43,122 nucleotides of DNA from Buttiauxella sp. A111 (GTDB lineage Bacteria; Pseudomonadota; Gammaproteobacteria; Enterobacterales; Enterobacteriaceae). The notes under the pieces were generated by a model. It ran no database searches and had not been told where the DNA came from. It saw only the letters and a program-made list of their open reading frames with translations. A program made the position numbers and the translations under genes. The stretch covers positions 1-43,122 of the forward strand of contig NZ_BJFN01000012.1 of NCBI RefSeq assembly GCF_014189855.1. The letters are read 5' to 3'. Position 1 is the first letter of the stretch. Each line of letters starts with the position of its first letter. Below are positions 21,048 through 40,165 of the stretch, one piece after another.

Positions 21048-21201
21048 ATATTCGCGGCTTAAGTGCCGAACATTAGTCGGGTCAAACCCGAACGCCGCAA
21101 GGATGGGCAGCGGCAATAAAATAAGTCAGCCCTCGTTACGTTATTGTTGGCGGTTTCGCCGACCGACACCAACCCTAATACTGAAGTGTGGATACCGTCT
21201 T

Positions 21202-23040
21202 ATGGAGCAAAACCCGCAGTCACAGCTTAAACTTCTTGTCCAACGTGGTAAGGAGCAAGGCTATCTGACCTATGCTGAGGTCAATGACCATCTGCCGGAA
21301 GATATCGTCGACTCCGATCAGATCGAAGACATCATCCAAATGATCAATGATATGGGCATTCAGGTGATGGAAGAAGCACCTGACGCCGATGACCTGTTGC
21401 TTGCTGAAAACTCAAACAACACAGACGAAGATGCGGAAGAAGCTGCCGCTCAAGTACTGTCCAGCGTAGAATCTGAAATCGGGCGTACAACTGACCCGGT
21501 TCGCATGTACATGCGTGAAATGGGTACCGTTGAGCTGTTAACCCGTGAGGGTGAAATCGATATCGCTAAGCGTATCGAAGACGGTATCAACCAGGTTCAG
21601 TGTTCCGTTGCCGAATATCCGGAAGCGATCACTTATCTGCTTGAACAGTACGACCGTGTTGAAGCAGAAGAAGCACGCTTGTCTGATTTGATCACAGGTT
21701 TTGTTGACCCGAACGCAGAAGAAGATCTTGCCCCAACCGCCACTCACATTGGCTCTGAGCTGACTAGCGAAGAAAACAGTGATGATGACGACGAGGAAGA
21801 AGATGAAGACGACGCGGACGATGACAACAGCATCGACCCTGAACTCGCTCGTGAGAAATTTGGTGAACTGCGCACGCAGTACGAAAGAACTCGCGATACG
21901 ATCAAAGCGAAAGGCCGTGCACACGCAGATTCCGCTGCTGAAATTCTGCAACTGTCTGAAGTCTTCAAACAGTTCCGCCTGGTACCGAAGCAATTCGATT
22001 ACCTGGTAAACAGCATGCGCGTCATGATGGACCGCGTTCGTACGCAAGAACGTCTAATCATGAGAATGTGTGTTGAACAGTGCAAAATGCCGAAGAAAAA
22101 CTTCATCACACTGTTCACCGGCAACGAAACCAGCGAAACCTGGTTCAATGCCGCCATTGCAATGAACAAGCCATGGTCTGAAAAACTGCATGACGTCGCA
22201 GACGACGTGCATCGTAGCTTGCAGAAACTGCAACAAATTGAAGAAGAAACCGGCCTGACCATCGAGCAGGTTAAAGACATCAACCGTCGTATGTCCATCG
22301 GTGAAGCGAAAGCCCGCCGTGCGAAAAAAGAGATGGTTGAAGCAAACTTACGTCTGGTTATTTCTATCGCTAAGAAATATACCAACCGCGGTCTGCAATT
22401 CCTGGATTTGATTCAGGAAGGTAACATCGGTCTGATGAAAGCCGTTGATAAGTTTGAATACCGCCGTGGTTATAAGTTCTCAACTTATGCAACCTGGTGG
22501 ATCCGTCAGGCTATCACCCGCTCGATCGCTGACCAGGCGCGCACCATCCGTATTCCGGTGCATATGATTGAGACAATTAACAAACTCAACCGTATTTCGC
22601 GTCAGATGTTGCAAGAGATGGGCCGTGAGCCAACTCCTGAAGAATTGGCTGAACGTATGCTGATGCCGGAAGACAAAATCCGTAAAGTGCTGAAGATCGC
22701 TAAAGAGCCAATCTCCATGGAAACGCCAATCGGCGACGATGAAGATTCGCATCTGGGTGATTTCATCGAGGATACCACCCTCGAGCTGCCACTGGATTCT
22801 GCCACTTCCGAGAGCCTGCGTAACGCCACGCATGACGTGTTGGCTGGCCTGACTGCTCGTGAAGCGAAAGTACTGCGTATGCGTTTTGGTATCGACATGA
22901 ATACCGACCACACGTTGGAAGAAGTGGGTAAACAGTTCGACGTCACCCGCGAACGTATCCGTCAGATCGAAGCGAAGGCACTGCGCAAACTGCGCCACCC
23001 AAGCCGTTCTGAAGTTCTGCGTAGCTTCCTGGATGACTAA
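21202..23040 (+). CDS. rpoD: RNA polymerase primary sigma factor (sigma 70)
   Basis: 612 aa housekeeping sigma factor. Region 1.1 starts [12 protein letters not shown]. Region 1.2 contains [16 protein letters not shown]. The non-conserved region has a long acidic run (about residues 190-215) of Asp and Glu. Region 2 binds and melts the -10 element ([23 protein letters not shown], then [14 protein letters not shown]). Region 4.2 ends with the -35-binding helix-turn-helix [24 protein letters not shown]. The ATG at 21202 is chosen over a longer frame from 21103 because it gives the conserved N-terminus. The 154-base gap after dnaG holds small hairpins (TCGGGT/ACCCGA at 21077-21091) where E. coli has mRNA processing. 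Confidence 0.98.
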
Positions 23041-23724: not shown

Positions 23725-23800
23725 GGCCCCTTAGCTCAGTGGTTAGAGCAGGCGACTCATAATCGCTTGGTCGCTGGTTCAAGTCCAGCAGGGGCCACCA
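23725..23800 (+). tRNA. ileX: tRNA-Ile2, anticodon CAU (lysidine-modified)
   Basis: 76 nt including encoded CCA. The acceptor GGCCCCT pairs with AGGGGCC. The D-arm is AGCTCAGTGGTTAGAGC, the anticodon loop CTCATAA gives CAU, and the T-arm contains GGTTCAAGTCC. A CAU anticodon with this body, located after mug, identifies the minor isoleucine tRNA of E. coli ileX, whose C34 is changed to lysidine by TilS so that it reads AUA. It marks the end of colinearity with E. coli in this window. Confidence 0.95.
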
Positions 23801-23808
23801 AACATATC

Positions 23809-23844
23809 AAGGACCTGGATAAGAAATTATCCAGGTCCTTTTTG
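23809..23844 (+). terminator. Terminator of the tRNA-Ile(CAU) gene
   Basis: A perfect 14-bp stem, AAGGACCTGGATAA (23809-23822) with TTATCCAGGTCCTT (23827-23840), closes a GAAA tetraloop and is followed by TTT. It starts eight bases after the CCA end. The next 170 bases, up to the uxaB terminator, hold no gene I can support. Confidence 0.9.
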
Positions 23845-24009
23845 TTTTGTTTCAATCTGGATGCTGTAGCTCAATTGCAGGTGCCGTAGTCAGAGAGATT
23901 GCCAGCAGCCAGCATTGGCGCTCACTCCACCCGGCCCGAAAGCGACCCAGCAGAATGAAATAAGCCTTGGATCGGCATGGTCGAAATCAAAGTGCTGTTG
24001 CTGAAGGGT

Positions 24010-24042
24010 AAAAAACAGCGCCCAACACAACTCCGGGCGCTG
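24010..24042 (-). terminator. Terminator downstream of uxaB
   Basis: CAGCGCCC (24016-24023) and GGGCGCTG (24035-24042) form an 8-bp stem. On the minus strand it is followed by six T, 16 bases past the uxaB stop. Confidence 0.85.
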
Positions 24043-24058
24043 CAAAGGCAAGGTAACC

Positions 24059-25504
24059 TTAATCCAGTGCTTTTACCGCCTGGCGCATCCCTTGCACCAG
24101 AATATTTTCCAGACATACAGTCACCTGGGCTGCAAGCCCCGGTAACAACGTTAAATCTTCACCCCAATGCGTGTTATCGCTGAGCACAGCATCCACCAGT
24201 TCGCGCAATGTCAGATCCGCCCCCACGCGCGGCCACATCTGCTGATAGAGCGTGAGCCACTGTTCATCGTCCTGGAGTGGATATGTCCCCCCCGCGCGCT
24301 CACCACGGTAAAAAGCAATCAGTGCAGCAAGCGCAAACGTCAGTCGCACGGGATACGCGCCATTCTGTTGACCCGCCAGTAACTGAGGCAAAATACGCGT
24401 GCGGAATTTCGTCATACCGTTGAGTGCGATAGAAAGTAGCTGATGGCGGATGTATGGGTTCTGGAAACGTCCTGTCACCGCATCGGCAAATTCACGCAGC
24501 TCGCCGGCGGGGAGATCCAACACCGGAATAATCTCCTGGTTAATCGCCTTTTCCACAAAGTGGCGAACATCATCGTCCTGCATCGCCTCGCCGACGGTAT
24601 CTAGCCCACACAGCAACGCCACTGGCACCAGTGCGGTATGCGCCCCGTTGAGGATGGCGACTTTACGCTCTTTATACGGTTTGATATCAGCAACAATGCG
24701 GATATTCAGCGAACACTCCGCCAGTTTTAACTCATCTGCCAGCCAGGCCGGCCCCTGAATCACAAACAGATAAAAATGCTCGGCGGCGACGAGAAACTCA
24801 TCGTGATACCCCAACTGATCTTCCAGCGCTGGCGCCTCCTCGCGTGGATAGCCGGTCACGATTCTGTCCACCAGCGTAGAGCAGAATGTGTTTGCCGTCT
24901 CCAGCCAGTCGAGAAACGCCGGAGACAGTTGCCACTCCTGTGCATAACGCTGAATTAAGGTCTTGAGCGCATCGCCGTTATAGTCAATCAGTTCGCAGGG
25001 AATGATCACCCAGCCTTTGTCTGGTGCGCCGTTGAAGTGGTTAAAACGTTCCAACAGCAGGCGCGTCAGTTTGGCCGGAAAGCTCACCGGTGGGGCATCA
25101 TTGATACTGTCACCTGCGTGATAGCTAATCCCGGCCTCAGTGGTGTTAGAAAAAACAAAGCGAATATCGGGGTTATGCGCCAGCGCCAGATATCCGGCAA
25201 AATCCTGATATGGGTTAATCTCGTTATTCACCGAGCGGATCAGCCGTGCGTCACTGACGGCCTCGCCCTGTTCGTTCAGGCCACGAACCACCGTGGTGTA
25301 CAGGCCATCCTGGGTATTTAACGACGGCGGAAAATCAGTATTAATGGGGCGAACAAGGGTGACTCCCGCCTGCAAATCGGTGTTCTCATTAAGGATATCT
25401 ATCTGCCAGTCCACGAACGCCCGCAGAAAGTTACCTTCACCAAACTGGATCACTTTCGTTGGATAGCTCGCACCAGGAAAATCATTCCGATTCAATGTGT
25501 TCAT
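24059..25504 (-). CDS. uxaB: Tagaturonate reductase (altronate oxidoreductase)
   Basis: NAD-dependent polyol dehydrogenase of the mannitol dehydrogenase family, very close along its length to E. coli UxaB. It reduces D-tagaturonate to D-altronate. The nucleotide-binding segment is [17 protein letters not shown] near residues 19-33. The catalytic signature [17 protein letters not shown] contains the family Lys, Asn and His. The ATG at 25504 is preferred to the one at 25510 because AAGGA lies about seven bases before it and the protein then matches MKTLNRRDFPGA of E. coli. Length is 481 aa. It follows lgoD by 13 bases, so both are in one operon. Its placement in an L-galactonate cluster, rather than with uxaC, suggests dedication to that pathway. 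Confidence 0.9.
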
Positions 25505-25517
25505 GGTCATATCCTTA

Positions 25518-26540
25518 TCAGAAAGTAATCACGCCTTTGATCAGATCACGGTTGTTAATCACATCACTTTCATAGATTTCCGCCAGGGTGGCGAAGGGGT
25601 AACGATGCGTCAACATCATGTCTGCGGTCAGTTTGCCCTCAGCCATCAGACGTCCCACTTTGGCGAAATCCTCCGGTGTGGCATTACGGCTGCCCATCAT
25701 CGTGGTCTCTTTCTTGTGAAAATCGGGGTCAGAAAACTGCAAATCGCCCTTAAACAACCCAACGAAAACGATACTGCCGCCATGGCGAATCAGATTGATG
25801 GTGTTGTTCATCGCGTGTTGATTCCCCGTGGCATCAATGACTTTTTGTGCCAATGAGCCGCCGAATTGCGCGCGCAGTTGGAGGTCAAAATCCTCGGCTG
25901 ACGGGTCGATAACCGGTAGTGCCAGACGAGATATCACATGCTCCCGACGAGAGGGACTGGTATCGGCGACGACGACCTGCGCGCCATCAGCTTTGGCGAT
26001 GGCTGCCGCACCCAAGCCAATGGGGCCGGCGCCGACAACCAGTACCTGTTCACCGGGTTCAATCGCCGCCCGGCGTACCGCATGTGCGCTAATGGCATAT
26101 GGCTCAATCATCGCTGCCGCCAATGGATCAATACCGTCAGCAACCAGTAGGTTCGTCACCGGAACAGACAAATACTCGCTGAATCCGCCATCCTGATGTA
26201 CACCAATCACCGAAATTTTCTCGCAGCAGTTGGTACGCCCGCTTTTACACGCTGGACATTGTTGACACGCCACGTAGGGAATAACCGCAACCTGCTGACC
26301 ATTTTTCAGCTGCTGGGTATTTTTTCCCAGCTCAACAATTTCACCGCATATTTCATGACCCAGAACGCGGGGGTAACTGAAAAAAGGTTGATTACCTCCC
26401 CAGGCATGAATATCTGTCCCGCAAATCCCAACGGATTTAATTTTTATTAATGCTTCACCTTCCCCTGGAATAGGAATTTTACGTTCATTCCAGACTAATT
26501 TTTTCGGTTCCTGACAAATCAGTGTATTCATCGTGGACAT
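25518..26540 (-). CDS. lgoD: L-galactonate 5-dehydrogenase, zinc-dependent
   Basis: Medium-chain zinc alcohol dehydrogenase, 340 aa and highly similar to E. coli YjjN (LgoD), which oxidises L-galactonate to D-tagaturonate with NAD. Catalytic zinc ligands are C40 in GICGTD and H62-E63 in GHE. The structural zinc lobe has the cysteines of [15 protein letters not shown] (residues 92-106). The Rossmann motif [12 protein letters not shown] lies near residue 168. AGGAG sits nine bases before the ATG. It is divergent from lgoR. The product feeds UxaB, encoded directly downstream. Confidence 0.93.
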
Positions 26541-26613
26541 AATTCTATTCTCCTGTTTTCTGTTGCATCAGATATCAATGAAAATAAAAACATCGGAGAA
26601 ACAGGAATCGTAA

Positions 26614-26688
26614 TCTGTGAATACAGACGCATAAAAATGTTCTAAATGTGGTTTTAATACACCAAAATCGGGTTTTAATTCGCCAAAA
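26614..26688. promoter_or_regulatory. lgoD-lgoR divergent control region with tandem operator-like repeats
   Basis: Two 18-base direct repeats, GGTTTTAATACACCAAAA (26650-26667) and GGTTTTAATTCGCCAAAA (26671-26688), are spaced 21 bases, two helical turns. A related motif, TTTAAACACCAGAAAA, lies upstream of lgoT near 27665-27680. The second repeat abuts the lgoR translation start, which suggests LgoR autoregulation. TCTGTGAATACAGA (26614-26627) is an inverted repeat that overlaps a weak CRP-like half site. Confidence 0.5.
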
Positions 26689-26700
26689 ATGGAGAGTCCA

Positions 26701-27615
26701 ATGAGCCGCTCGCAAAATTTACGCCACAATGTGATTAACCAAATGATCGATGATATGGCTCGCGACCATATCCCTTCCCCACTCCCTTCGCAGAGTGCTC
26801 TGGCGGAGATGTACAACATCAGCCGCACCACGGTGCGCCATATCATGGGTCATTTAAGTGAGTGCGGCGTACTGACGCCAGTCGGCAGCGACTACGTGAT
26901 CGCCCGTAAACCCAGCCATGACGACGGCTTCTCCTGCATCACCGCCTCACTGGCTGAGCAAAATCATATTTTCGAGCAAGCTTTTTTCACCATGATTAAC
27001 CAGCGGCAGTTGCGCGCTGGTGAGACATTTTCCGAACTTCAACTGGCGCGTGCCGCAGGCGTCAGCCCGGTCGTTGTGCGGGAATATCTTTTAAAATTCG
27101 GGCGTTACAACCTCATTCAAAACGAGAAACGCGGCCAGTGGAGCATGAAACAGTTTGATCAATCCTGGGCAGAGCAACTGTTTGAACTGCGTGAAATGTT
27201 GGAAACGCACGCTCTGCAACATTTTCTGAATCTACCGGATAGCGACCCTCGTTGGTTAAGGGCTAAAACCTTGCTGGAACGCCATCGGATGCTACGCGAT
27301 AGCATCGGCAGCAGTTTTCGCATGTTCTCCCAGCTTGACCACGAGTTTCACGCCCTGCTGCTTTCAGCTGCTGATAATATCTTTTTCAATCAATCCCTTG
27401 AGATAATATCCGTCATCTTTCACTTCCACTACCAGTGGGATGAGCGGGATCTCAAGCAGCGAAACATCATTGCTGTCGACGAACACATGACCATTCTCAG
27501 CGCCCTGATTTGCCGCAGCGATCTGGATGCGACGCTGGCGCTACGTAACCATTTGAATTCAGCCAAACAATCGATGATTCGTTCAATAAACCAGAGTCTT
27601 GAAAGTGCCCATTAA
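26701..27615 (+). CDS. lgoR: GntR-family regulator of L-galactonate catabolism
   Basis: Close homologue of E. coli YjjM (LgoR). The N-terminal winged helix-turn-helix contains LPSQSALAEMYNISRTTVRHIMGHL. The C-terminal helical FadR/FCD-like domain includes FELREMLETHALQHF and histidines typical of the metal-dependent ligand pocket. The ATG at 26701 is chosen because GGAG lies six bases upstream; the ATG at 26689 lacks such a site and overlaps an operator-like repeat. Length is 304 aa. It is divergent from lgoD-uxaB and followed by lgoT after 213 bases. Confidence 0.88.
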   Translation: MSRSQNLRHNVINQMIDDMARDHIPSPLPSQSALAEMYNISRTTVRHIMGHLSECGVLTPVGSDYVIARKPSHDDGFSCITASLAEQNHIFEQAFFTMINQRQLRAGETFSELQLARAAGVSPVVVREYLLKFGRYNLIQNEKRGQWSMKQFDQSWAEQLFELREMLETHALQHFLNLPDSDPRWLRAKTLLERHRMLRDSIGSSFRMFSQLDHEFHALLLSAADNIFFNQSLEIISVIFHFHYQWDERDLKQRNIIAVDEHMTILSALICRSDLDATLALRNHLNSAKQSMIRSINQSLESAH

Positions 27616-27772
27616 ATGCCGATTAAAAACAGATAATCATTAACGGCAACACGATTTTATCAAATTTAAACACCAGAAAATTGTGCCTTACCTATGCTCA
27701 CGTCAAGTCGACTGCATTAGAAAAACTCGTGAGTGGTGGTGAATAACATTTATCACTTGTCGTTTAAATAAA

Positions 27773-27799
27773 TTCTGCTCAGCATTTTGTTGAGCAGAA
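27773..27799 (+). promoter_or_regulatory. Hairpin in the lgoT leader
   Basis: TTCTGCTCA (27773-27781) and TGAGCAGAA (27791-27799) form a perfect 9-bp stem about 30 bases before the lgoT start. It could be an operator or an mRNA structure affecting lgoT; A-rich sequence rather than T follows, so it is not an evident plus-strand terminator. Confidence 0.4.
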
Positions 27800-27828
27800 A
27801 ATAAAATCATAAGGTTCAGGAGTCCGGT

Positions 27829-29190
27829 GTGGAAAGAGAAAACATTAGCCTAGACCCGCGTTCTTCATTTGACGCGCCCTCACCTGCGGATATTTCCGCC
27901 CCGCCAGATGGGATGATTCAACGTAGCAGTAGAATAAAAAGAATACAGACTACGGCAATGATTTTGCTATTTTTTGCTGCTGTAATTAATTACCTCGATC
28001 GAAGTTCACTGTCGGTAGCGAATTTAACCATTCGTGAAGAATTAGGACTCAGTGCAACTCAAATCGGTGTCCTGCTTTCCGTCTTTTCACTCGCTTATGG
28101 TATTGCACAACTTCCCTGCGGCCCGCTGTTAGATCGCAAAGGTCCGCGCATTATGCTCGGCCTGGGAATGTTCTTCTGGTCACTGTTCCAGGCGCTCTCC
28201 GGCATGGTGCATACCTTCACTCAGTTTGTCCTGGTCCGCATCGGCATGGGGATTGGCGAAGCGCCAATGAACCCGTGCGGCGTGAAGGTCATCAACGACT
28301 GGTTCAACATCAAAGAACGGGGTCGCCCGATGGGGCTTTTTAACGCCGCCTCCACTATTGGGGTAGCGATAAGCCCGCCAATTTTGGCCGCAATGATGCT
28401 GGTGATGGGTTGGCGTGGGATGTTTATTACTATCGGCGTATTAGGTGTTTTCCTCGCCATCGGTTGGTACATGCTCTATCGCAACCGTGAACAGATTGAA
28501 CTGACTGGCGTGGAACAAGCGTATCTGAATGCCGGAAGCGTTAACGCACGCCGCGATCCGCTGAGTTTTGCAGAGTGGCGCAGTTTATTTCGTAACCGCA
28601 CCATGTGGGGCATGATGCTTGGCTTTAGCGGCATTAACTACACCGCGTGGCTGTATTTGGCCTGGCTGCCTGGCTATCTGCAAACGTCTTACAATCTGGA
28701 TCTCAAAAGCACTGGGCTAATGGCCGCGATTCCGTTCCTGTTTGGTGCTGTGGGTATGCTGGTGAACGGCTTTGTCACTGACTGGCTGGTGAAAGGTGGG
28801 ATGGCACCGATTAAAAGCCGTAAGATCTGCATCATCGCCGGGATGTTCTGTTCTGCGGCATTTACCTTCGTGGTTCCTCAGGCCACAACGTCTATGGAGG
28901 CCGTCTTACTGATTGGTATGGCGCTGTTCTGTATTCATTTCGCCGGAACTTCCTGCTGGGGACTGATCCATGTGGCTGTTGCGTCACGCATGACCGCGTC
29001 AGTCGGCAGTATCCAGAACTTTGCCAGTTTTATTTGTGCGTCTTTCGCACCGATTGTCACCGGCTTTATTGTTGATACGACCCACTCGTTCCGTCTTGCG
29101 CTGATCATCTGCGGTTGCGTCACGGCTCTGGGTGCGCTCGCTTATATCTTCCTGGTCCGTCAACCCATCAGTGACCCACGTACTCATTGA
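27829..29190 (+). CDS. lgoT: L-galactonate/proton symporter, MFS (ACS family)
   Basis: 453 aa with 12 predicted membrane helices, nearly identical over long stretches to E. coli YjjL (LgoT), the L-galactonate importer of the anion:cation symporter family. Typical segments are INYLDRSSLSVANL in helix 1, GPLLDRKGPRIML (the MFS A motif) after helix 2, and GIGEAPMNPCGVKVINDWF in helix 4. The start is GTG, with AGGAG upstream. Together with lgoD and uxaB it gives uptake plus two catabolic steps. Confidence 0.92.
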   Translation: MERENISLDPRSSFDAPSPADISAPPDGMIQRSSRIKRIQTTAMILLFFAAVINYLDRSSLSVANLTIREELGLSATQIGVLLSVFSLAYGIAQLPCGPLLDRKGPRIMLGLGMFFWSLFQALSGMVHTFTQFVLVRIGMGIGEAPMNPCGVKVINDWFNIKERGRPMGLFNAASTIGVAISPPILAAMMLVMGWRGMFITIGVLGVFLAIGWYMLYRNREQIELTGVEQAYLNAGSVNARRDPLSFAEWRSLFRNRTMWGMMLGFSGINYTAWLYLAWLPGYLQTSYNLDLKSTGLMAAIPFLFGAVGMLVNGFVTDWLVKGGMAPIKSRKICIIAGMFCSAAFTFVVPQATTSMEAVLLIGMALFCIHFAGTSCWGLIHVAVASRMTASVGSIQNFASFICASFAPIVTGFIVDTTHSFRLALIICGCVTALGALAYIFLVRQPISDPRTH

Positions 29191-29198
29191 TCACTGGC

Positions 29199-29226
29199 AG
29201 CCCGATAACACAATGCTTATCGGGCT
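29199..29226. terminator. Hairpin between convergent lgoT and the LysR gene
   Basis: AGCCCGATAA (29199-29208) and TTATCGGGCT (29217-29226) are a perfect 10-bp inverted repeat that overlaps the LysR stop codon. No T-tract is present on either strand. It may still act as a 3'-end stabiliser or a weak bidirectional terminator. Confidence 0.45.
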
Positions 29227-30131
29227 AAGCCGGGACTGCAATGACTCATCAACGCCTCCATAAACACACGAAGAATAGCGGGTTGTGTTGCTGCACGTTT
29301 GGTGACTGAAGAGAACGGCCATTTAGAACCAAATTGCTTCGGCACAATCTGGCGCATCTGACCGGACTCAACCCATTGGCGGGCGTAATGTATGGGAAGG
29401 AAACCGATGTACGCCCCGGTCAGGATCAGAATGGCCTGTGCTTCGACATTGTCTACGGTCGCCGCCGCACTTCCTGATTTGAGCATTTGCAGATCGCGTT
29501 GTTGCAGGAAGCCACGCGCCACGATTTGACTATCCCGCACCGCTGCAATCAGGTCATCGCCCTCAGCCCGGTTTTCGAATAACGGATGGTAGCAACTGCA
29601 GTACAAACCATCTTCTTCGTCGTATACCGGCTTGTAGTCTAACCCTGCCACCTCGAACGGAAAATGTCCTATGGCGACGTGCAACCGTCCATCCAGCACG
29701 CGCTCCTCCAGCTCAGCAGGCGTACCAATGTAGATATCCAGTTGTACATCGTGTCCATGCGAGACGAACTGTCGCAAAGTGCGTGACAGTATGCTGCCGC
29801 TATCGGTAACGGTGTTGTCGATGATACCCAGATAGAGTCTGCCAGAGATGTGCCGCTTGAGTGACGAGGTATCCATACAAAATGTATCTACTGCCAATAA
29901 CAAACGTTGTGCTGCCTCGTAGGTAGCCGCGCCATGTTCAGTCAACCGAAAGCCACTTCGTCCGCGTTCGCATAATTTGACACCGAGCCGTGTCTCAAGG
30001 CTGGTCATCTGTTCACTGATCGTGGATTGACTGACATTCAGGGCTGCCTGAGCGGCCGAAAAGCCTTTGCATTTCACAATTGTCATGAAAATTCTCAGCA
30101 GCTTCAGGTCAATATTGTGCAGTTGATTCAC
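29217..30131 (-). CDS. LysR-family transcriptional regulator
   Basis: 304 aa. The N-terminal winged helix-turn-helix (about residues 8-67) reads LKLLRIFMTIVKCKGFSAAQAALNVSQSTISEQM, then LETRLGVKLCERGRSGFRLTEHG. The effector-binding domain (about 95-300) follows. The start is GTG, with AGAGG eight bases upstream. It is divergent from the agmatinase-family gene across 152 bases, where a T-N11-A motif typical of LysR sites can be found (near 30170-30182). The arrangement predicts control of the four-gene operon to its right in response to that pathway's substrate. The ligand is unknown. Confidence 0.88.
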   Translation of the reverse strand: MNQLHNIDLKLLRIFMTIVKCKGFSAAQAALNVSQSTISEQMTSLETRLGVKLCERGRSGFRLTEHGAATYEAAQRLLLAVDTFCMDTSSLKRHISGRLYLGIIDNTVTDSGSILSRTLRQFVSHGHDVQLDIYIGTPAELEERVLDGRLHVAIGHFPFEVAGLDYKPVYDEEDGLYCSCYHPLFENRAEGDDLIAAVRDSQIVARGFLQQRDLQMLKSGSAAATVDNVEAQAILILTGAYIGFLPIHYARQWVESGQMRQIVPKQFGSKWPFSSVTKRAATQPAILRVFMEALMSHCSPGLAR

Positions 30132-30283
30132 TTCTTTTTCCTCTTACGCTTTGCTTCGGAAATGGCGATATGAACATCTGATATTTTCTATTTTTATACT
30201 GCGAATTGTTGACCATAGTCATTGTTAAGGCAAATAAACCAGTGCCTGCCCTTTACCAGAAAATCCACAGATGGGGAGTGAAA

Positions 30284-31261
30284 ATGGGGAACAATAACTA
30301 TGAGTCTGGACGATTAAACTTGCCGTTTGTCGGGCATTGTACTTTTGCAAAATCGCCGGTGTGCCTCAACTGGGAAGAGATTGATGCCGACGTGGCAATT
30401 CTGGGTGCCCCTAACGATATGGGAACCCAATGGCGTGCTGGCGCCCGCTTTGGACCACGCGGTATTCGCGAGGCATCGACTCTGTTTTCATTTGGTCATG
30501 CCGGTGCTTATGACCATGAAGATGATGTGCTCTACCTGACTCAAGATCAGGTACGCATGGTCGATGTGGGTGATGCTGACATTGTGCATACCGATATGGT
30601 CAGTAGTAACGCCAACATCGAACTGGCAGTACGCAAAATTCTTGACTCCGGCGCCATGCCGGTGGTGCTGGGAGGCGACCATTCGATACACGCTCCGGTC
30701 ATCAAGGCGTATGCCGGACGAGGGCCGATTCACATCGTGCACTTCGACGCCCACCTCGATTTTGTCGACGAACGCCACGGTGTGCGCTACGGACACGGCA
30801 GCCCACTACGCCGCGCGTCAGAAATGGACCATATCGTCGGTATGACGCAGCTTGGTATCAGGAATGTCTCCTCATCCAACCGCAGCGACTATGACGCCGC
30901 CCGCGCAGCAGGTTCAAACATCTTGTCTGTGCGTGACGTGCGCCGACTAGGTACCGAGGCTGTGCTGGCGCAGATCCCCGAAGGTTGTAACTACTATCTC
31001 ACCATCGATATCGACGGTTTCGACCCGTCTATCGCGCCAGGTACCGGCACGCCGAGCCACGGTGGCTTCCAGTACTACGAGGTACTGGAAATCATTCAGG
31101 CACTGGCCAAACGCAGTGGTGGAAACATTATCGGCATGGATTTGGTCGAAGTGGCCCCTGCCTACGATCCCACCGGTGTGACCTCAATTCTGGCGGCCCA
31201 ATTGCTGATGAACAGCATTGGTTTCATTTTCCACGAGCGTAAGCAAGCCCTGTCTCGCTGA
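30284..31261 (+). CDS. Agmatinase-family ureohydrolase (guanidino-acid amidinohydrolase?)
   Basis: Arginase/agmatinase superfamily, expected to hydrolyse a guanidino group to urea plus an amine. All six metal ligands are present: H133 in GGDHS, D155, H157 and D159 in DAHLD, and D242 and D244 in DIDGFDP. E. coli SpeB has Thr in place of Leu in DAHTD, and overall similarity to SpeB appears modest, so agmatine may not be the substrate. Guanidinobutyrase, guanidinopropionase and guanidine hydrolase (GdmH) belong to this superfamily and are alternatives. The ATG at 30284 has GGGAG five bases upstream; a longer frame from 30206 lacks such a site. Length is 325 aa. First gene of an operon with an aldehyde dehydrogenase, an NCS1 permease and a GMC dehydrogenase. 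Confidence 0.85.
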   Translation: MGNNNYESGRLNLPFVGHCTFAKSPVCLNWEEIDADVAILGAPNDMGTQWRAGARFGPRGIREASTLFSFGHAGAYDHEDDVLYLTQDQVRMVDVGDADIVHTDMVSSNANIELAVRKILDSGAMPVVLGGDHSIHAPVIKAYAGRGPIHIVHFDAHLDFVDERHGVRYGHGSPLRRASEMDHIVGMTQLGIRNVSSSNRSDYDAARAAGSNILSVRDVRRLGTEAVLAQIPEGCNYYLTIDIDGFDPSIAPGTGTPSHGGFQYYEVLEIIQALAKRSGGNIIGMDLVEVAPAYDPTGVTSILAAQLLMNSIGFIFHERKQALSR

Positions 31262-31270
31262 ACATAATCC

Positions 31271-31287
31271 GGGTGGCGCTGCCACCC
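31271..31287. repeat. REP-like palindrome after the ureohydrolase gene
   Basis: GGGTGGC-GCT-GCCACCC, followed by CACATGACCCTAC, resembles enterobacterial REP units (GGGTGGCGCT..ACCCACCCTAC). It sits in the 91-base gap before the aldehyde dehydrogenase gene. A related unit occurs at 38454-38483. Confidence 0.45.
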
Positions 31288-31352
31288 ACATGACCCTACA
31301 TCCATAACCCGGAAGCCAAAATCCGGGTAATAAAAAAAGAGAGGATGATCAA

Positions 31353-32864
31353 ATGGATGCAACCGTAAAACACTATCTTGACCAATACGGTATTTCCGAG
31401 GCAACGCAACGCTTCCTGGCTAAGCCGCAGAAAATGTTTATCGGTGGCCAGTGGATTGATGGAAGCGCAGGGGAAGTGAGTGCCGTTATTGAGCCGTCCA
31501 CGCAAGGCATACTGACCTCTATTCCATTGGCGAGCACCGCAGACCTTGACCGCGCCGTGGCTGCTGCCCGCCACCAGTTCGACCACGGTGAATGGCGTCG
31601 CCTGAAGCCGCTGGAGCGCGAGCGCCTGATGCACCGCCTGGCTGACCTGATAGAAGCCAACGCTGATGAACTGGCTGAGATCGAATCGATTGATATGGGG
31701 AAATCGGTGTCACAGGCACGTGATGTCGACATTCAGGGCACCATCGACACCTTCCGCTATTTCGCAGGCTGGGCTTCTAAGCTGCATGGTCGCACCGTCG
31801 AGCCATCCCTGCCGGGCAATTATCTGGCGTATACCCGCAAAGAACCGATTGGCGTCGTTGCCGCGATTGTTCCGTGGAATTTCCCACTGCAAACCATGGC
31901 GTGGAAACTGGCGGCTGCACTGGCGGTAGGTTGTACTGCCGTGATTAAACCCGCTGAACTGACATCGTTGTCGACGCTGCGTTTTGCTGAATTAGTCCAG
32001 GAAGCCGGTATTCCTGACGGCGTGGTCAATATCATCACAGGACACGGCAATGTGATTGGCGCAGCTATGGCCAACCATCCGGGGATCGACAAAGTCACCT
32101 TTACCGGCTCCACTCCTGTTGGCCGTAAAGTCGGGCATACCGCCGTTGAGAACATCAAGCGTGTGACCCTGGAACTGGGAGGCAAGTCCCCTGTTCTGGT
32201 ACTGGAAGATGCGGATATTCCTGCTGCGGCTCAGGCTGTCGCCAACGGTGTGTTCTTTAACTCCGGCCAGGTGTGCGATGCCGGTACCCGCGCCTATATT
32301 CACCGCAGTATTTATGATCGCTTCCTGACCGCACTTGCCGACTACACCTCAACGCTGAAGGTTGCTCCAGGGCTGGATCGGGAGTGTTTCATCAGCCCAC
32401 TGGTATCAGCCAGGCAGAAGGACTCTGTTCTGTCCTACATTGATGCTGGAGTGCGCGAAGGTGCGAAACTTTACTATGGTGGAAAGCCTCATAAGGGCGA
32501 AGGGTTCTTCGTCGAGCCAACCATCTTTGCTCACTGTCGCAACGATATGCGTATCGTACAAGAAGAGATCTTTGGCCCGGTATTGGTGACTGCCCCATTC
32601 GATACCGTCGAGGAAGCTATTGAGCTCGCCAATGATTCGCCGTTTGGCCTGGCTGCCGCTATTTATTCTAACGACCTCGCCCGCGTACACACGCTGATTC
32701 CTCAGCTACGAGCCGGCTCAGTGTATGTCAACGCGCACAGCACAATCGACCCGGCACTGCCGTTTGGTGGTTTCAAGGATTCTGGTTTTGGTAAAGATCT
32801 GGGTCCTGAGCAGCTCGACTACCTGATGGAAACGAAAACGGTGTGGATCACCCTGCCTTCGTAA
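31353..32864 (+). CDS. NAD(P)-dependent aldehyde dehydrogenase
   Basis: 503 aa aldehyde dehydrogenase superfamily member, similar in layout to betaine-aldehyde and gamma-aminobutyraldehyde/guanidinobutyraldehyde dehydrogenases. The oxyanion residue N176 lies in PWNFPL, the cofactor loop is FTGSTPVG near residues 250-257, the general base E274 is in LELGGKSP, and the catalytic C308 is in NSGQVCDAGTR. A ribosome-binding site AGAGG lies eight bases upstream. In this operon it would oxidise the aldehyde produced by the GMC dehydrogenase. Neighbouring genes favour an amino- or guanidino-aldehyde. The exact substrate is not deducible. Confidence 0.88.
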   Translation: MDATVKHYLDQYGISEATQRFLAKPQKMFIGGQWIDGSAGEVSAVIEPSTQGILTSIPLASTADLDRAVAAARHQFDHGEWRRLKPLERERLMHRLADLIEANADELAEIESIDMGKSVSQARDVDIQGTIDTFRYFAGWASKLHGRTVEPSLPGNYLAYTRKEPIGVVAAIVPWNFPLQTMAWKLAAALAVGCTAVIKPAELTSLSTLRFAELVQEAGIPDGVVNIITGHGNVIGAAMANHPGIDKVTFTGSTPVGRKVGHTAVENIKRVTLELGGKSPVLVLEDADIPAAAQAVANGVFFNSGQVCDAGTRAYIHRSIYDRFLTALADYTSTLKVAPGLDRECFISPLVSARQKDSVLSYIDAGVREGAKLYYGGKPHKGEGFFVEPTIFAHCRNDMRIVQEEIFGPVLVTAPFDTVEEAIELANDSPFGLAAAIYSNDLARVHTLIPQLRAGSVYVNAHSTIDPALPFGGFKDSGFGKDLGPEQLDYLMETKTVWITLPS

Positions 32865-32876
32865 TCCCACTCGCCT

Positions 32877-32914
32877 GTCACTTCCGAATTAGCTTGCAGC
32901 GGTTCGGAAGTGAC
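32877..32914 (+). repeat. 12-bp perfect inverted repeat inside the operon
   Basis: GTCACTTCCGAA (32877-32888) and TTCGGAAGTGAC (32903-32914) form a stem with a 14-base loop, 13 bases after the aldehyde dehydrogenase stop. No T-tract follows. It may stabilise the upstream mRNA 3' end or act as an attenuator before the permease gene. Confidence 0.55.
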
Positions 32915-33007
32915 CAGATTGCACGCAACACACTGAACTAGCGAGCCGGTCAGCGCCTGGCTTAACGAATTCTTATTGCTTCACCCTTATAGCTCACGGG
33001 GTACATC

Positions 33008-34516
33008 ATGCAAACAGAATCAACAGCAGTTAAAGGGAGCAGCAACGAGCAAAGCACCATCGAAGGACGCTCAATAGACTTTGTGCCAGAACATGAACGT
33101 ACTGACAAACTCTCCAGTCAGGGGCCTTTCTGGTTCGTCGGCAACTTTACTTTTTTTACCATGACCATCGGCTTTGTCGGGCCGAGTGTCGGGCTTGATT
33201 CAATATGGACCACTGTCGCCGGTACCCTGGGCATCATGTTTGGCACGCTGTTTATGGCCTTCCATGGTTCACAAGGGCCGCATTTGGGGCTTCCGCAGAT
33301 GATCCAATCACGCGCCCAGTTTGGCTATCGTGGCGTGGTGCTGGTATTGATCGCGACCCTGTTTGTGTTCGCAGGCTTCAATATCGTCAACCTGGTGTTG
33401 ATGATGCAGGGGCTCAAAACGCTGTTCAGTTGGGATCCGATGCAAGTTGCGCTGGCCGTGACTTTACCGGCCACGATTCTTGCCATACTCGGCCACGACT
33501 GGATGCACAAAACCTTCAAATGGTCACTGTACCTGTCGCTGCCTTTATACGGCCTGGTCACTCTGGCGGTGCTGATGGGCTGGGTTCAGGATGCTCCGGT
33601 GATCAAAGGGGTTGTTCCGGAAACACCTTTAGGCTTCAACTGGACGGGATTTATTGCCCAGTTCGCAGCGGCTGCCAGTTACAACATCGCCTATGCACCG
33701 TATGTTTCTGATTATTCACGCTACCTGCCGAAAAACACGTCGAGCAGCAAGCTGATCACAGCGGTATTTTTGGGCGCATCGTTGTCGGGTGCATGGATGA
33801 TCTCGGTAGGAGGCTGGTTGGCGTCCCATCTGCACACAACAGATGTGCTGGTGGCACTTAACGCGGTCGGCGCAGGTTTTGCCCCTCATCTGGGTACGGT
33901 TGTGGTGGCGATTACTATCCTGGCTTTCCTGCCTGTTATCGCGATGAATATTTACAGCGCCAAACTCACCGCGATTACCAGTATCGACTCCTTCAAGAAG
34001 ATAGAACCGACTGCCAAAGCCCGTGTTGTGGCCATCATCTTCGTGGTGTGCTTGCAACTGGGTGTGGCGATGAGCATCTACAACTCTGGCTCTGGCCTGT
34101 CAGTGCTCAACATCTACCTCGTCGTGATGCTGTACTTCCTGGTGCCCTGGACTGCGGTCAACCTCACGGACTATTTCTTTGTGCGTAGAGGCCGTTATGC
34201 CATCCCACATTTCTTCTTGCCACACGACAACATTTACGGCCGCTGGGGGACGCGTGGCTTGCTCTCCTACCTGGTGGGTTTCATGGCGATGGTCCCGTTC
34301 TTCTGCATCTTTGATGGGAGTCGCGAGGTGTTTGTCGGCCCGATTGCGCAGGCAATGGGCAGCGTGGATTTAGCCTGGCTGGTGGGGCTTATCGTTTCAA
34401 GCATCGTCTACTACCTGTCTTGTCGTTCGCTGAATCTTCATCACGAAGAAGCGGTTATCGCGCATATCGAAATCAATATGCCGGAATACACCACCGGGAA
34501 TAAAAGGCGCGCCTGA
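33008..34516 (+). CDS. NCS1-family permease (cytosine/purine/thiamine/allantoin type)
   Basis: 502 aa inner-membrane transporter with about 12 hydrophobic segments, related to CodB-type nucleobase:cation symporter-1 proteins. Family features are the N-terminal GPFWFVGNFTFFTMTIGF segment, a helix 3 region with GPHLGLPQMIQSRAQFGYRG, and ASYNIAYAPYVSDYSRYLP in the middle. NCS1 members import nucleobases, hydantoins, allantoin and related nitrogen-rich compounds. It is third in the operon after a ureohydrolase and an aldehyde dehydrogenase, so it probably imports the pathway substrate. The substrate is unknown. Confidence 0.88.
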   Translation: MQTESTAVKGSSNEQSTIEGRSIDFVPEHERTDKLSSQGPFWFVGNFTFFTMTIGFVGPSVGLDSIWTTVAGTLGIMFGTLFMAFHGSQGPHLGLPQMIQSRAQFGYRGVVLVLIATLFVFAGFNIVNLVLMMQGLKTLFSWDPMQVALAVTLPATILAILGHDWMHKTFKWSLYLSLPLYGLVTLAVLMGWVQDAPVIKGVVPETPLGFNWTGFIAQFAAAASYNIAYAPYVSDYSRYLPKNTSSSKLITAVFLGASLSGAWMISVGGWLASHLHTTDVLVALNAVGAGFAPHLGTVVVAITILAFLPVIAMNIYSAKLTAITSIDSFKKIEPTAKARVVAIIFVVCLQLGVAMSIYNSGSGLSVLNIYLVVMLYFLVPWTAVNLTDYFFVRRGRYAIPHFFLPHDNIYGRWGTRGLLSYLVGFMAMVPFFCIFDGSREVFVGPIAQAMGSVDLAWLVGLIVSSIVYYLSCRSLNLHHEEAVIAHIEINMPEYTTGNKRRA

Positions 34517-34552
34517 GGCGGTTGTCCAGAATAAAAATGGAGCAAGAATATT

Positions 34553-36241
34553 ATGTCTACCAAACAATATGACTACATCATCGTGGGTGCCGGATCGGCA
34601 GGTTGTGTGCTGGCAAATCGTCTAACCGAAGACCCTAAAGTCAGCGTGCTGGTGGTCGAGTATGGCGGAAGTGATAAAAGCGTCATCATTCAGATGCCCA
34701 GCGCATTCTCGATACCGATGAACACCAAAAAATACAACTGGCACTATGAAACCGAACCCGAGCCACATCTGGATGGCCGCCGCCTGCACTGCCCGCGCGG
34801 CAAAGTGCTTGGCGGTTCGTCGTCGATCAACGGCCTGGTTTACATTCGTGGCCATGCCTACGACTTCGATGAATGGGAGTCATTAGGTGCCAAAAACTGG
34901 GGTTATCGCAACTGTCTGCCGTATTTCCGCAAAGCGGAAAACTTCAAATTTGGCGGCGATGATTATCGTGGATCAGAAGGCCCACTGAGCACCAACAACG
35001 GCAACAATATGCAAAACCCGCTGTACGGTGCCTGGATTGAGGCTGGCGCGCAGGCGGGCTACATCAAGACCGAAGATACCAACGGATACATGCAGGAAGG
35101 TTTTGGTGCGATGCATATGACGGTCAAGAATGGTGTGCGCTGGTCGACGGCGAACGCCTATTTACGGCCTGCGATGGAGCGCCCAAATCTGACCGTCGTC
35201 ACCCATGCGATGACCCGTAAACTGGTGCTCGAAGGCAAGCGTGTGGTGGGCGTCGAGTATGAGCAAAATGGGGAAGTACACACCGTACGCTGTACACGAG
35301 AGGTGTTGGTGTCTTCTGGCCCTATCGGCTCCCCTCACCTGTTGCAGCGTTCTGGCATCGGCCCGGCTGAAGTGCTGCGTAAAGCCGGGATTGAGGTGAA
35401 ACACGACTTGCCCGGTGTCGGTGAAAACTTGCAGGATCACTCCGAGATTTACATTCAATTCGAATGTAAGGAACCGGTGTCGCTTAATAGCAAAATGGGG
35501 TTGTTCTCTAAGGCGCTGATTGGCCTGCGCTGGTTATTGTTCAAAGATGGTTTGGGCGCGAGCAACCATTTTGAAGCCGGTGGATTCATCCGCTCAGGGA
35601 AAGGGTTGCGCTGGCCGGATATCCAGTTCCATTTTTTACCTGCGGCGATGCGCTATGACGGTGATAAACCGTTTAAAGGACACGGTTTTATGGTGCTCAC
35701 AGGCCCGAATAAGCCCAAAAGCCGGGGTTATGTGCGTGTGCGCTCAGCCGACCCGTATCAACATCCGGAAATCCGTTTTAACTATCTTGAGCGCGAAGAA
35801 GACCGCGAAGGCTTCCGCCGTTGTGTGCGCCTGACGCGTGAGATAATTGGCCAGCAAGCGATGGACAGCTTCCGTGGTGTGGAACTGGCCCCCGGCCCTA
35901 ATGTGAAAACAGACGAAGAAATTGATGCGTTTGTGCGTGCCAACATGGAAAGCACCATGCACCCGTGTGGTTCTTGCCGGATGGGTGAAGACAGCCTCGC
36001 CGTGGTGAATTCCGAATTGCGCGTACATGGCCTGCAAGGTGTGCGAGTGGTTGATTCATCGGTGTTTCCAACTGAGCCGAACGGCAACCTGAACGCACCG
36101 ACTATTATGCTGGCAGAACGTGCGGCTGATCTGATTCGTGGCAACACTTTGCTGGCACCGTCCGATGCGCAGGTCGGCCTTGCCGATAACTGGGAAATTC
36201 AACAACGCACCAGCATCCCTCGTCGCGACGTTGCCGTCTAG
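34553..36241 (+). CDS. GMC-family FAD-dependent alcohol dehydrogenase (choline dehydrogenase-like)
   Basis: 562 aa, homologous throughout to BetA choline dehydrogenase. The FAD ADP-binding motif GAGSAG is at residues 12-17 with the ribose-binding Glu in VVEYGG. Also present are the GMC signatures [19 protein letters not shown] and the second Prosite-type segment [18 protein letters not shown]. The active-site pair is H470 (MHPCGSC) and N514 (NLNAP). Members oxidise primary alcohols and often pass electrons to the respiratory chain. There is no betT, betI or close betB here, and a ureohydrolase is present, so choline is doubtful. A gene order of ureohydrolase, ALDH, permease and GMC suggests an alcohol that is oxidised twice and then stripped of urea. 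Confidence 0.88.
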
Positions 36242-36277
36242 GTCTGCCTGTTTCGATAAATTATTGATTAATCCCGC

Positions 36278-36309
36278 AAGCCACCAGCCCAAAAAGCGGT
36301 TGGTGGCTT
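36278..36309 (+). terminator. Hairpin after the GMC gene
   Basis: AAGCCACCA (36278-36286) and TGGTGGCTT (36301-36309) form a 9-bp stem 37 bases beyond the operon's last stop codon. The following CGTGC is not a T-tract, so it is a probable but not canonical terminator. Confidence 0.5.
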
Positions 36310-36406
36310 CGTGCATATACCCTGTTAGTTGCACTGGAAATAGTGTTGAATAATACCTTTGGCGGCTGGCATCCGCTTAATTGGTACTCATAAGGGTCAA
36401 TCAATA

Positions 36407-38492: not shown

Positions 38493-39341
38493 TCAGCCCC
38501 GCCAGAAAGGTTTATCCCCAAGAATCGTCGCGCGATGCATTATGCGGCGAGCCGGCAGGTAGTCGGCATTCGCATAATGCTGTGTCACACGGTTATCCCA
38601 GATGGCAATATCGTTTTCAGCCCAGCGCCAGCGCACCTGAAACTCCGGCTTTGTAATGTGCGCGAACAAGAAGGCGAGCAGCGCATCACTCTCTTTTTGT
38701 GAGAGATCGACAATCCGCGTGGTGAACCCTTCATTAACAAACAGCGCCTGTTTGCCGCTCACTGGATGAGTGCGGATAACCGGATGAAGCAGTGGGGGAT
38801 TTTTAACAACGGCCTCGCGCCAGCGCTGATGCTCTTCCTCACTTCGCAGATGCTTATACTCCGGGAATGACTTCTTAAAATCATGCTCCGCATGAAGACC
38901 AGACAGCAAACGCCTGAAGGGTTCCGAAAGCGCTTCATAGGCCGCAATGCCGCTGGTCCACAACGTATCGCCACCGGTTTCAGGAATCAGCTTCGCTGCC
39001 AATATTGCCCCGGCTGGCGGCGTTTCAATAAACGTGACATCGGTATGCCAGTTATCGTTATCCGGCGGATTATCGTTGTGCGTATCCAGCACGATTATCT
39101 CTTCCACCCCTTCCGCGTGTGGATAAACCGGGTGAATGTGCAGATCGCCAAAGCGCTGCGCCAGTGCACGTTGCTGTGCGGGTGTAATAGGCTGATCGCG
39201 CAGGAACAGCACCTGATGGCGGATCAGCGCATGATAAATCTGCTCAAACTGGTTATCGGTCAACCCTCGGCTCAGCGTCACACCGCTGACCTGCGCACCA
39301 ATGTAAGGCCCCAGAGGCGTAATATTCACTTTTTCACTCAT
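38493..39341 (-). CDS. tauD: Taurine dioxygenase
   Basis: Fe(II)/2-oxoglutarate dioxygenase that hydroxylates taurine, releasing sulfite and aminoacetaldehyde. The facial triad is H99 and D101 in HTDVTF and H255 in [11 protein letters not shown], with the 2-oxoglutarate-binding R266/R270 region in [15 protein letters not shown]. Length is 282 aa, one shorter than E. coli TauD, with high identity. The start at 39341 overlaps the tauC stop in an ATGA motif. A longer frame to 39404 lies inside tauC and is rejected. Last gene of tauABCD. Confidence 0.96.
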
Positions 39342-40165
39342 TGCCCTTCTCCATGCCATGGGGTTAAACGACGCTGCAAAGCACGCAAACCCAGCTCTAA
39401 ACAAAATGCGATTACGGCAATCACACCGATGCCTGCAAGCACCACGTCTGTTGCCAAAAACTCACCTGCAGATTGCACCATGAAGCCCAGCCCACGCGTG
39501 GCGGCGATAAGCTCAGCGGCAACCAGCGTTGACCAGCCCACGCCAAGTCCAATGCGAAATCCAGTCAGGATTTCCGGCAGCGCACCAGGCAAAATGACAT
39601 GCCACACAACCTGGAGGCGTGATGCCCCAAGAGCCTGGGCGGCACGAATGCGAACCTGTTTTGCACTGCGAACCCCAGCCATGGTCGACATCGCGACAGG
39701 GGCGAAAATCGCCAGGTAAATCAGCAAGATTTTCGAGGTTTCACCAATGCCGAACCAAATCACCATCAGTGGTAGATAAGCCAGCGGAGGTACCGGGCGA
39801 TAAAGCTCAATCAGAGGATCGAGAATGCCTCGAACCGTTGGGCTAAGCCCCATGGCGATGCCTACCGGAATGCCAATCAATACTGCGGCTAAAAGTGCTG
39901 TGAGGATACGCAACAGGCTGGCGGCAAGATGCTGCCAAAGTGTTGCATCCATAAACCCCTGCGGCCCGGCAATGCTAATCAGCTTTACCAATACCTGGCC
40001 TGGAGGAGGCAAAAACAGCGGGCTTACCCATTGCTGTGCGGCCACCCACCACCACAGCAATACGATTGCCGTGACCGTTGCGATGCTCAGCGTTAGCTGG
40101 CGCGAGAATGGCCAGTGCACTGCCAGCCTTTTGCGGCGGGCTTTATCCTGAATAACGATGCTCAT
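39338..40165 (-). CDS. tauC: Taurine ABC transporter permease
   Basis: 275 aa inner-membrane permease of the nitrate/sulfonate/taurine class. About six membrane helices are present. The EAA loop that contacts the ATPase is visible as [29 protein letters not shown] near residues 175-205. The start overlaps the tauB stop by four bases and its own stop overlaps tauD, indicating tight translational coupling. Confidence 0.95.

Follow-up and report, generated by a model that had tools for sequence, protein, structure and literature searches.

A LysR-linked ureohydrolase operon in Buttiauxella sp. A111 and its possible role in guanidino-alcohol catabolism

What might a bacterium break down with an operon that joins an agmatinase-like ureohydrolase to a choline dehydrogenase-like flavoprotein? 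The question is raised by a 43,122-nucleotide stretch of Buttiauxella sp. A111 DNA (contig NZ_BJFN01000012.1, positions 1 to 43,122; the window in what follows), in which a sequence-only reading had described a LysR-type regulator facing four co-oriented genes for a ureohydrolase (UH), an aldehyde dehydrogenase (ALDH), an NCS1 permease and a GMC flavoprotein. Coordinates and Pfam matches confirm this arrangement, and all five genes are open frames at the positions listed below. The answer that we propose, and to which we would give roughly an even chance, is that this is a LysR-controlled guanidino-alcohol operon that converts 2-guanidinoethanol to glycine and urea.

29217 to 30131, minus strand: LysR-type regulator of the operon (PF00126 and PF03466)
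30155 to 30182, strand not given: probable LysR operator, a conserved block around TTCGGAAATGGCGATATGAACATCTGAT (alignment of 14 intergenic regions)
30214 to 30219, plus strand: CATAGT block, a possible -10 element with a putative promoter role (same 14-row alignment)
30284 to 31261, plus strand: UH, proposed guanidino-acid, probably guanidinoacetate, hydrolase (PF00491, metal-ligand motifs)
31353 to 32864, plus strand: ALDH, proposed to convert a guanidino aldehyde to the acid (PF00171)
33008 to 34516, plus strand: NCS1 permease type A, proposed alcohol importer (PF02133)
34553 to 36241, plus strand: GMC flavoprotein, BetA-like, proposed guanidino-alcohol dehydrogenase (TIGR01810; PF00732/PF05199)

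The four genes from UH to GMC lie on the plus strand with intergenic gaps of 91, 143 and 36 bases, in that order. Pfam scores were 268.6 bits for UH (PF00491), 583 for ALDH (PF00171) and 122.9 for the permease (PF02133, gathering score 23.5). As listed, the UH open frame begins at a TTG codon (30206 to 31261). We favor the ATG at 30284 as the probable start, which would give a protein of 325 amino acids. Our reasoning is that in many relatives the alignment sets in only at about residue 14-27 and that a GGGGAG stretch lies upstream of this ATG.

Conservation of the five genes

A scan of named genomes yielded 249 relatives of UH. The best 80 loci (62 Pseudomonas, 1 Metapseudomonas, 10 Burkholderiales, 3 Rhodocyclales, 2 Enterobacterales and 2 Neisseriales) were used for the counts that follow, which were made by tblastn since calling of open reading frames in high-GC loci produced many shadow frames. 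LysR, UH, ALDH, an NCS1 permease and GMC were all present at 73 of the 80 loci, and at 70 of these 73 in the order and orientation of the window; L067 has LysR on the opposite strand, and L077 and L086 have UH last. A contig end falls inside the operon at L041 and L062, while five loci (L054, L055, L057, L059 and L110) have LysR and UH only. The sequence-only reading had held that its single pathway would fail if the genes were rarely neighbors elsewhere; the co-occurrence count shows that this is not so.

Since the 80 loci had been picked by UH similarity, we added a count of GMC and UH in the genus of genome G352, which was reached via a UH match in G352 itself. The two genes were jointly present in 5 of 25 genomes and jointly absent in 20 (thresholds E <= 1e-200 for GMC and E <= 1e-120 for UH; one-sided Fisher test, 1.9e-5); without G352, 4 of 24 genomes have both (9.4e-5). 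GMC is 83-86% and UH 86-88% identical in this genus, with starts 4.2 kb apart in 5/5 cases. Within the window's order, UH at no less than 60% identity was found in 4 of 295 sampled genomes, the window's own among them. The five genes are, then, a widely shared bacterial unit. A functional link between GMC and UH is also suggested by L195, where a UH with 79% identity is directly followed by a different GMC, 40% identical to that of the window (L195:7833-10537); no ALDH or NCS1 match was found there within 10.7 kb, the region ending close behind UH.

Catalytic residues had been noticed in three of the enzymes, and their motifs proved invariant among orthologs. UH carries the motifs of the ureohydrolase superfamily (GGDH, DAHxD, DxDxxDP), and its binuclear metal-site motifs GGDHS, DAHLD and DIDGFDP are invariant in 80 aligned orthologs. 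The same holds for the ALDH cysteine (GQVCDAG) in 73 and for the active-site His and Asn of GMC (HP and GNLNAP motifs) in 72. The Glu of FEAGGFIR, which we take to be the counterpart of choline oxidase Glu312, is likewise invariant in the 72 GMC orthologs; it is present in 9lq0, the best PDB match of GMC (BetA-type, 639 bits), and absent from 8b7s. Because GMC is BetA-like, a cationic amino alcohol would suit it. The best NCBIfam matches of ALDH are phenylacetaldehyde and betaine-aldehyde dehydrogenases, none over its cut-off among the matches listed (betaine-aldehyde dehydrogenase, TIGR01804, 509.5 vs 668.6).

The NCS1 permease scores below the TIGR00800 subfamily cut-off (81.7 vs 353.1). The slot between ALDH and GMC is occupied by type A at 49/80 loci and by a second type, B, at 25/80; PF02133 was found in both type B copies scanned, and the two types are at best about 23-25% identical over 198-363 residues (BLAST). 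The exchange of one NCS1 type for another in this slot is an argument that the permease serves this pathway.

Substrate and product of the ureohydrolase

In a tree of 24 proteins the UH clade, together with the Deinococcus protein 1wog, is split from SpeB, GbuA, GpuA, PAH and GdmH at 100/98. UH thus falls neither in the SpeB group nor in the GbuA/GpuA clade, in a tree that has several long branches and for which the program warns of false joins. Enteric, Pseudomonas and more remote copies retain the clade motifs FGHxGAY, HLDFVDERxGV, RNVSS and TPSHGGF, from which L161 (about 50% identical), L007 and 1wog deviate. Because these motifs are kept, the members of the clade likely share a substrate, and the other neighborhoods in which the clade occurs therefore count as evidence. 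An AlphaFold2 model of UH (16-sequence alignment; mean confidence, pLDDT, 62.8, with residues 45-88 and 161-176 under 50) cannot place the substrate-binding residues.

We read 35 regions that contain a UH relative and lack the operon (L054, L055, L057, L059, L110, L113-L116, L142-L161 and L196-L201). In the 27 extra regions that were added to the 80 loci (20 of the 22 UH matches in other classes and 7 more), and in 4 others, neighbors were named by eye, by some Pfam/NCBIfam scans and by blastp against a reference set of limited size, so transporters outside that set could be missed. Importer genes accompany UH in 6 of the 35 regions; they are TRAP genes in L054, L057, L113, L114 and L196, and in L115 UH is embedded in an ABC cluster for polar amino acids. 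DctQ and DctM were identified in L054 and DctP in L057, and tblastn found DctM in both. The structures closest to the L057 TRAP binding protein are 3fxb, 3gyy, 4pfi and 2vpn; of these, 3fxb, 3gyy and 2vpn are presumably ectoine binders, and ectoine combines an amidine and a carboxylate in one molecule. Acids and zwitterions are more fitting cargo for TRAP and amino-acid ABC importers than alcohols are. Given that the UH clade occurs with such importers and no GMC, we consider its substrate to be probably a small zwitterionic guanidino acid, in which case UH would catalyze the last step. Five of the 27 extra regions have telling neighbors: TRAP in L196, GMC in L195, an amidinotransferase in L158, and tandem ureohydrolases, one UH-type and one grouping with GpuA, in L143 (9015-10954) and L149 (8275-10333).

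For the amino acid released, the neighboring genes point to glycine. The plus strand of L086, from Azoarcus sp. Aa7, carries ALDH, NCS1 type B, GMC, a TorF-family porin, UH, gcvH, gcvP, a 176-aa unmatched frame, an AGCS carrier, SHMT, an APC permease and L-serine ammonia-lyase (sdaA). Scores exceed the cut-offs for gcvH (146 vs 115.9), gcvP (1508 vs 859) and L-serine ammonia-lyase (723 vs 345), and 358 bases separate UH from gcvH; a gene set for the route from glycine to pyruvate thus stands directly after UH. A gcsR-like gene (a TyrR-like sigma-54 activator) was found at 45/80 loci, equal to 45/63 of the Pseudomonadales; it lies left of UH at 32 of them and, behind a CycA-like permease, right of UH at the other 13. 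Forty-four of these 45 loci also have gcvH, gcvP or SHMT in the stretch (gcvH at 40); the gcsR-like copy of L043 gave 432 bits with NCBIfam TyrR, below the cut-off of 576. At least one of gcsR, gcvH, gcvP and SHMT is present at 49/80 loci, and L055, L059 and L110, with LysR and UH only, adjoin gcsR, gcvH and gcvP. The portions of PMC4894688 available to us state that GcsR activates gcvH2-gcvP2-glyA2-sdaA-gcvT2 upon glycine, that this gcs2 operon leads from glycine to pyruvate, and that gcsR lies beside such genes in nearly all Pseudomonadales. Because the two are placed together there, we count gcsR and gcv as one landmark, not two. The left and right Pseudomonas arrangements and that of Azoarcus are at least three different juxtapositions.

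An amidinotransferase provides a further lead. In G502, probably an alphaproteobacterium and hence of another class of the phylum, the gene directly after UH encodes a protein that, among PDB entries, matches L-arginine:glycine amidinotransferase best (1jdx, 290 bits), a name that no NCBIfam model gives it. This class of enzyme makes guanidinoacetate. Flavin reductase, luciferase-like monooxygenase, ALDH, UH and the amidinotransferase homolog stand in a row (L158:5821-11695), a cluster that could be another guanidino pathway. At 1e-60, amidinotransferase was found in 13 of 398 phylum-sample genomes, six of which (family f73) match at 90% or more and all have UH; UH is present in 24 of the 398. 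According to the consulted excerpt of PMC11641458, arginine:glycine amidinotransferase also yields guanidinoethanol from ethanolamine. The Azoarcus run of gcv, SHMT and serine dehydratase genes, the gcsR-like neighbors and the amidinotransferase neighbor together make glycine the probable product of UH.

Proposed pathway and alternatives

The scheme that we propose is built on the observed genes, their conservation as a unit, their intact catalytic motifs and their neighborhoods; every reaction, the order, the substrate, its methylation and its chain length are what we infer from these, the chain length from gene neighborhoods. Under LysR control, the operon would serve to break down a small guanidino alcohol, for which 2-guanidinoethanol is the likeliest candidate; the NCS1 permease would import this alcohol. 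GMC would oxidize it to guanidinoacetaldehyde, ALDH would convert the aldehyde to guanidinoacetate, and UH would split guanidinoacetate into glycine and urea, the glycine then entering glycine cleavage or other glycine metabolism. If UH ends on guanidinoacetate, the two oxidoreductases would supply that acid from 2-guanidinoethanol. Urease alpha was not found in the genome. A single pathway in this order, for a guanidino-ethanol, -propanol or -butanol, had been suggested from the window alone. It gains from the co-occurrence of the genes, from UH clade members found with TRAP or ABC importers and no GMC, and from the glycine genes downstream. Of the alcohols named, the two-carbon guanidinoethanol is now favored, the substrate itself still being a matter of interpretation.

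Several observations weigh against this reading. The Pseudomonas loci share ancestry, so 45/80 does not stand for 45 separate events, and gcsR was not found in the fetched stretch at 18 of the 63 Pseudomonadales loci. The Azoarcus arrangement was not found at the related Aromatoleum loci L077 and L062, nor were glycine-catabolism genes found in the window or beside the Citrobacter and Serratia loci. Amidinotransferase adjoins UH in just 1 of the 6 f73 genomes, and UH at 1e-80 was not found in 7 genomes with weaker amidinotransferase matches. No telling neighbor was seen, against the limited reference set, in 22 of the 27 extra UH regions. GMC exceeds the NCBI cut-off for choline dehydrogenase (BetA, TIGR01810; 786.8 vs 732.1), and the natural supply of guanidinoethanol is uncertain. 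The closest solved relative of UH is the Deinococcus radiodurans 'agmatinase' 1wog (198.6 bits), for which agmatinase activity is reported without kinetics in the accessible text of PMC8125230. Human AGMAT does not hydrolyze guanidinoacetate, as stated in the available part of PMC9772407, though this enzyme resembles GbuA.

The anatomy of the operon is compatible with any guanidino alcohol, and another member of this group, namely 3-guanidinopropanol yielding beta-alanine, 4-guanidinobutanol yielding gamma-aminobutyrate (GABA), or N-methylated creatinol yielding creatine and sarcosine, is an alternative that we rate as unlikely without dismissing it. CsiD, a DAO-type oxidase, an ALDH-like protein and a class III aminotransferase lie near the operon in Citrobacter sp. 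R56 (L033:635-5881), which could be a GABA-type context. However, it is the glycine-cleavage genes that recur, at the 49 loci counted above (beta-alanine and GABA-use genes were not systematically searched for), UH stands outside the GbuA/GpuA clade, and none of the eight scanned Azoarcus proteins was named sarcosine oxidase. It is also conceivable, if distinctly improbable, that two half-pathways meet at glycine, GMC and ALDH acting on choline or ethanolamine and UH acting separately on guanidinoacetate. The BetA score of GMC, which is the only TIGR01810 match in the genome, speaks for such a division, as does the occurrence of UH elsewhere without GMC and ALDH. Set against it are a genome in which no protein reaches the BetI cut-off (201.3; best score 66.6), the score of ALDH below the betaine-aldehyde dehydrogenase cut-off, and the different GMC beside UH in L195.

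A still smaller chance goes to a reversed order, in which UH would release urea first, turning guanidinoethanol into ethanolamine, and GMC and ALDH would then make glycine. In its favor, the operon opens with UH, and one human AGMAT variant hydrolyzes guanidinoethanol, albeit poorly (PMC9772407, in the part available), but the UH clade members found with TRAP or amino-acid ABC importers and no GMC suit an acid. We give the least credence to an agmatine/polyamine operon with UH as agmatinase and ALDH as aminobutyraldehyde dehydrogenase. In its favor, UH passes the NCBI agmatinase cut-off (SpeB, TIGR01230; 187.6 vs 174.3), its nearest solved relative is named agmatinase, and an Orn/Lys/Arg decarboxylase gene is convergent to the operon at 7/80 loci. 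The cut-off is, however, not specific for agmatinase, because the second ureohydrolases of L149 and L143, which group with GpuA, pass it too (177.7 and 190.0). The loop A motif of EcAGM is not kept in UH in our alignment, whereas a second ureohydrolase in the same genome, 35% identical to UH, has the EcAGM loop motifs TYANGCEFDH and TEFD (loop residues as named in the accessible text of PMC8125230). An agmatine operon would also leave GMC without a role.

The guanidinoethanol pathway that we favor has relatives among known systems. In the gpu/gbu systems of Pseudomonas aeruginosa (GpuA, 3nip; GbuA, 3nio), a regulator and a transporter presumably likewise accompany a ureohydrolase, which cleaves a guanidino acid to urea and an amino acid; here, in contrast, alcohol and aldehyde oxidations would come first, UH belongs to another clade and the transporter is of the NCS1 type. 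As in betIBA, the pathway from choline to glycine betaine, a GMC flavoprotein and an ALDH would oxidize an N-cationic alcohol to an acid, whereas here BetI is missing at its cut-off, ALDH is under that of betaine-aldehyde dehydrogenase, and a ureohydrolase and an NCS1 permease are added. The guanidine hydrolase GdmH (which we take to be 7esr, named probable agmatinase 2 in the PDB listing) and metformin hydrolase share with UH the ureohydrolase superfamily and guanidino-type substrates, but GdmH lies on the opposite side of the tree from UH, and metformin hydrolase, known here from PDB matches, is outside the tree. The GcsR-gcs2 operon is a frequent neighbor with glycine as the proposed common metabolite, although the guanidino operon has its own LysR; the genes of both run in one direction in L086 and also in the 13 loci where those of glycine catabolism stand behind a CycA-like permease. 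As for 1wog, it is on the same side of the tree as UH but has a long branch and an Asn, noted in the part of PMC8125230 available to us, where UH has the catalytic-loop His.

The names agmatinase for UH and choline dehydrogenase for GMC, as given by NCBI models, are probably wrong here. We think it possible, at somewhat less than an even chance, that the pathway is new and that the UH clade is a family of bacterial guanidinoacetate hydrolases; for some relatives of another class (probably alphaproteobacteria), UH and arginine:glycine amidinotransferase would then form a closed cycle in which glycine is the carrier and arginine loses urea. What would be novel is the alcohol-oxidizing front end, guanidino-acid catabolism being known. 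Among the matches listed from the open-licence literature, we found neither this gene set nor bacterial guanidinoethanol catabolism described, and the excerpts of PMC12117332 and PMC5664417 mention agmatinase and choline dehydrogenase only in unrelated places. If correct, the proposal would supply a gene for bacterial guanidinoacetate hydrolysis, add guanidino alcohols to the microbial nitrogen sources and suggest what two NCS1 permease branches transport.

Regulation and genomic site

For LysR, 77 orthologs were found at more than 90% coverage (58-86% identity), and none of the NCBIfam families among the matches listed reaches its cut-off. The 14 aligned intergenic regions come from enterics, Burkholderiales, Neisseriales and Pseudomonas, including L110 with its solo UH; the L049 row is too short to show the left part. 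A block in the LysR-UH gap is kept from enterics to Pseudomonas, L110 included, and, being common to full and solo-UH forms, it suggests that both may respond to one inducer, for which a guanidino acid would fit. CATAGT is found in 13/14 rows, with GATAGT in L095, and a T-N11-A scan meets the conserved operator block in just 4/14.

The right flank of the site is present in 12/12 genomes of the window's genus, and the five genes occupy the site in 3/12 (the window, G666 of the same species and G661). Nine of the other 11 regions read lack the five genes there; UH above 35% was not found in G112 and G140, the two of the nine searched genome-wide. Exactly these five genes fill the site in the sister genome G661, where shared DNA resumes at window position 29210. 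The operon is therefore an accessory block. Genes for an alcohol dehydrogenase (25518), a GntR regulator (26689) and an MFS transporter (27829) were considered as pathway members and dropped, as G661 has the five genes without them. MocR-type regulators, a D-amino-acid dehydrogenase and a decarboxylase (each at 7/80 loci) were left out of the model as clade-limited neighbors.

A D-amino-acid dehydrogenase-type gene lies near LysR at 7/80 loci, all Burkholderiales (including L036:1888-3495, with 724 bits to NF009074, and L049:7237-8778). To the left of the operon are a putative rpoD, judged by eye (21103-23040), and a tRNA-Met gene (23725-23800). The segment from this tRNA to a DUF2461 gene (23725-36373) is variable among the 12 genomes of the genus and looks like an insertion hot spot. 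Within it, 24059-29190 contains a mannitol/altronate-type dehydrogenase (by eye), a zinc alcohol dehydrogenase, GntR and MFS genes, and looks like a separate sugar-acid operon. At 38493-40165, inspection by eye suggests genes for a TauD-like dioxygenase and an ABC permease, which might belong to a taurine operon.

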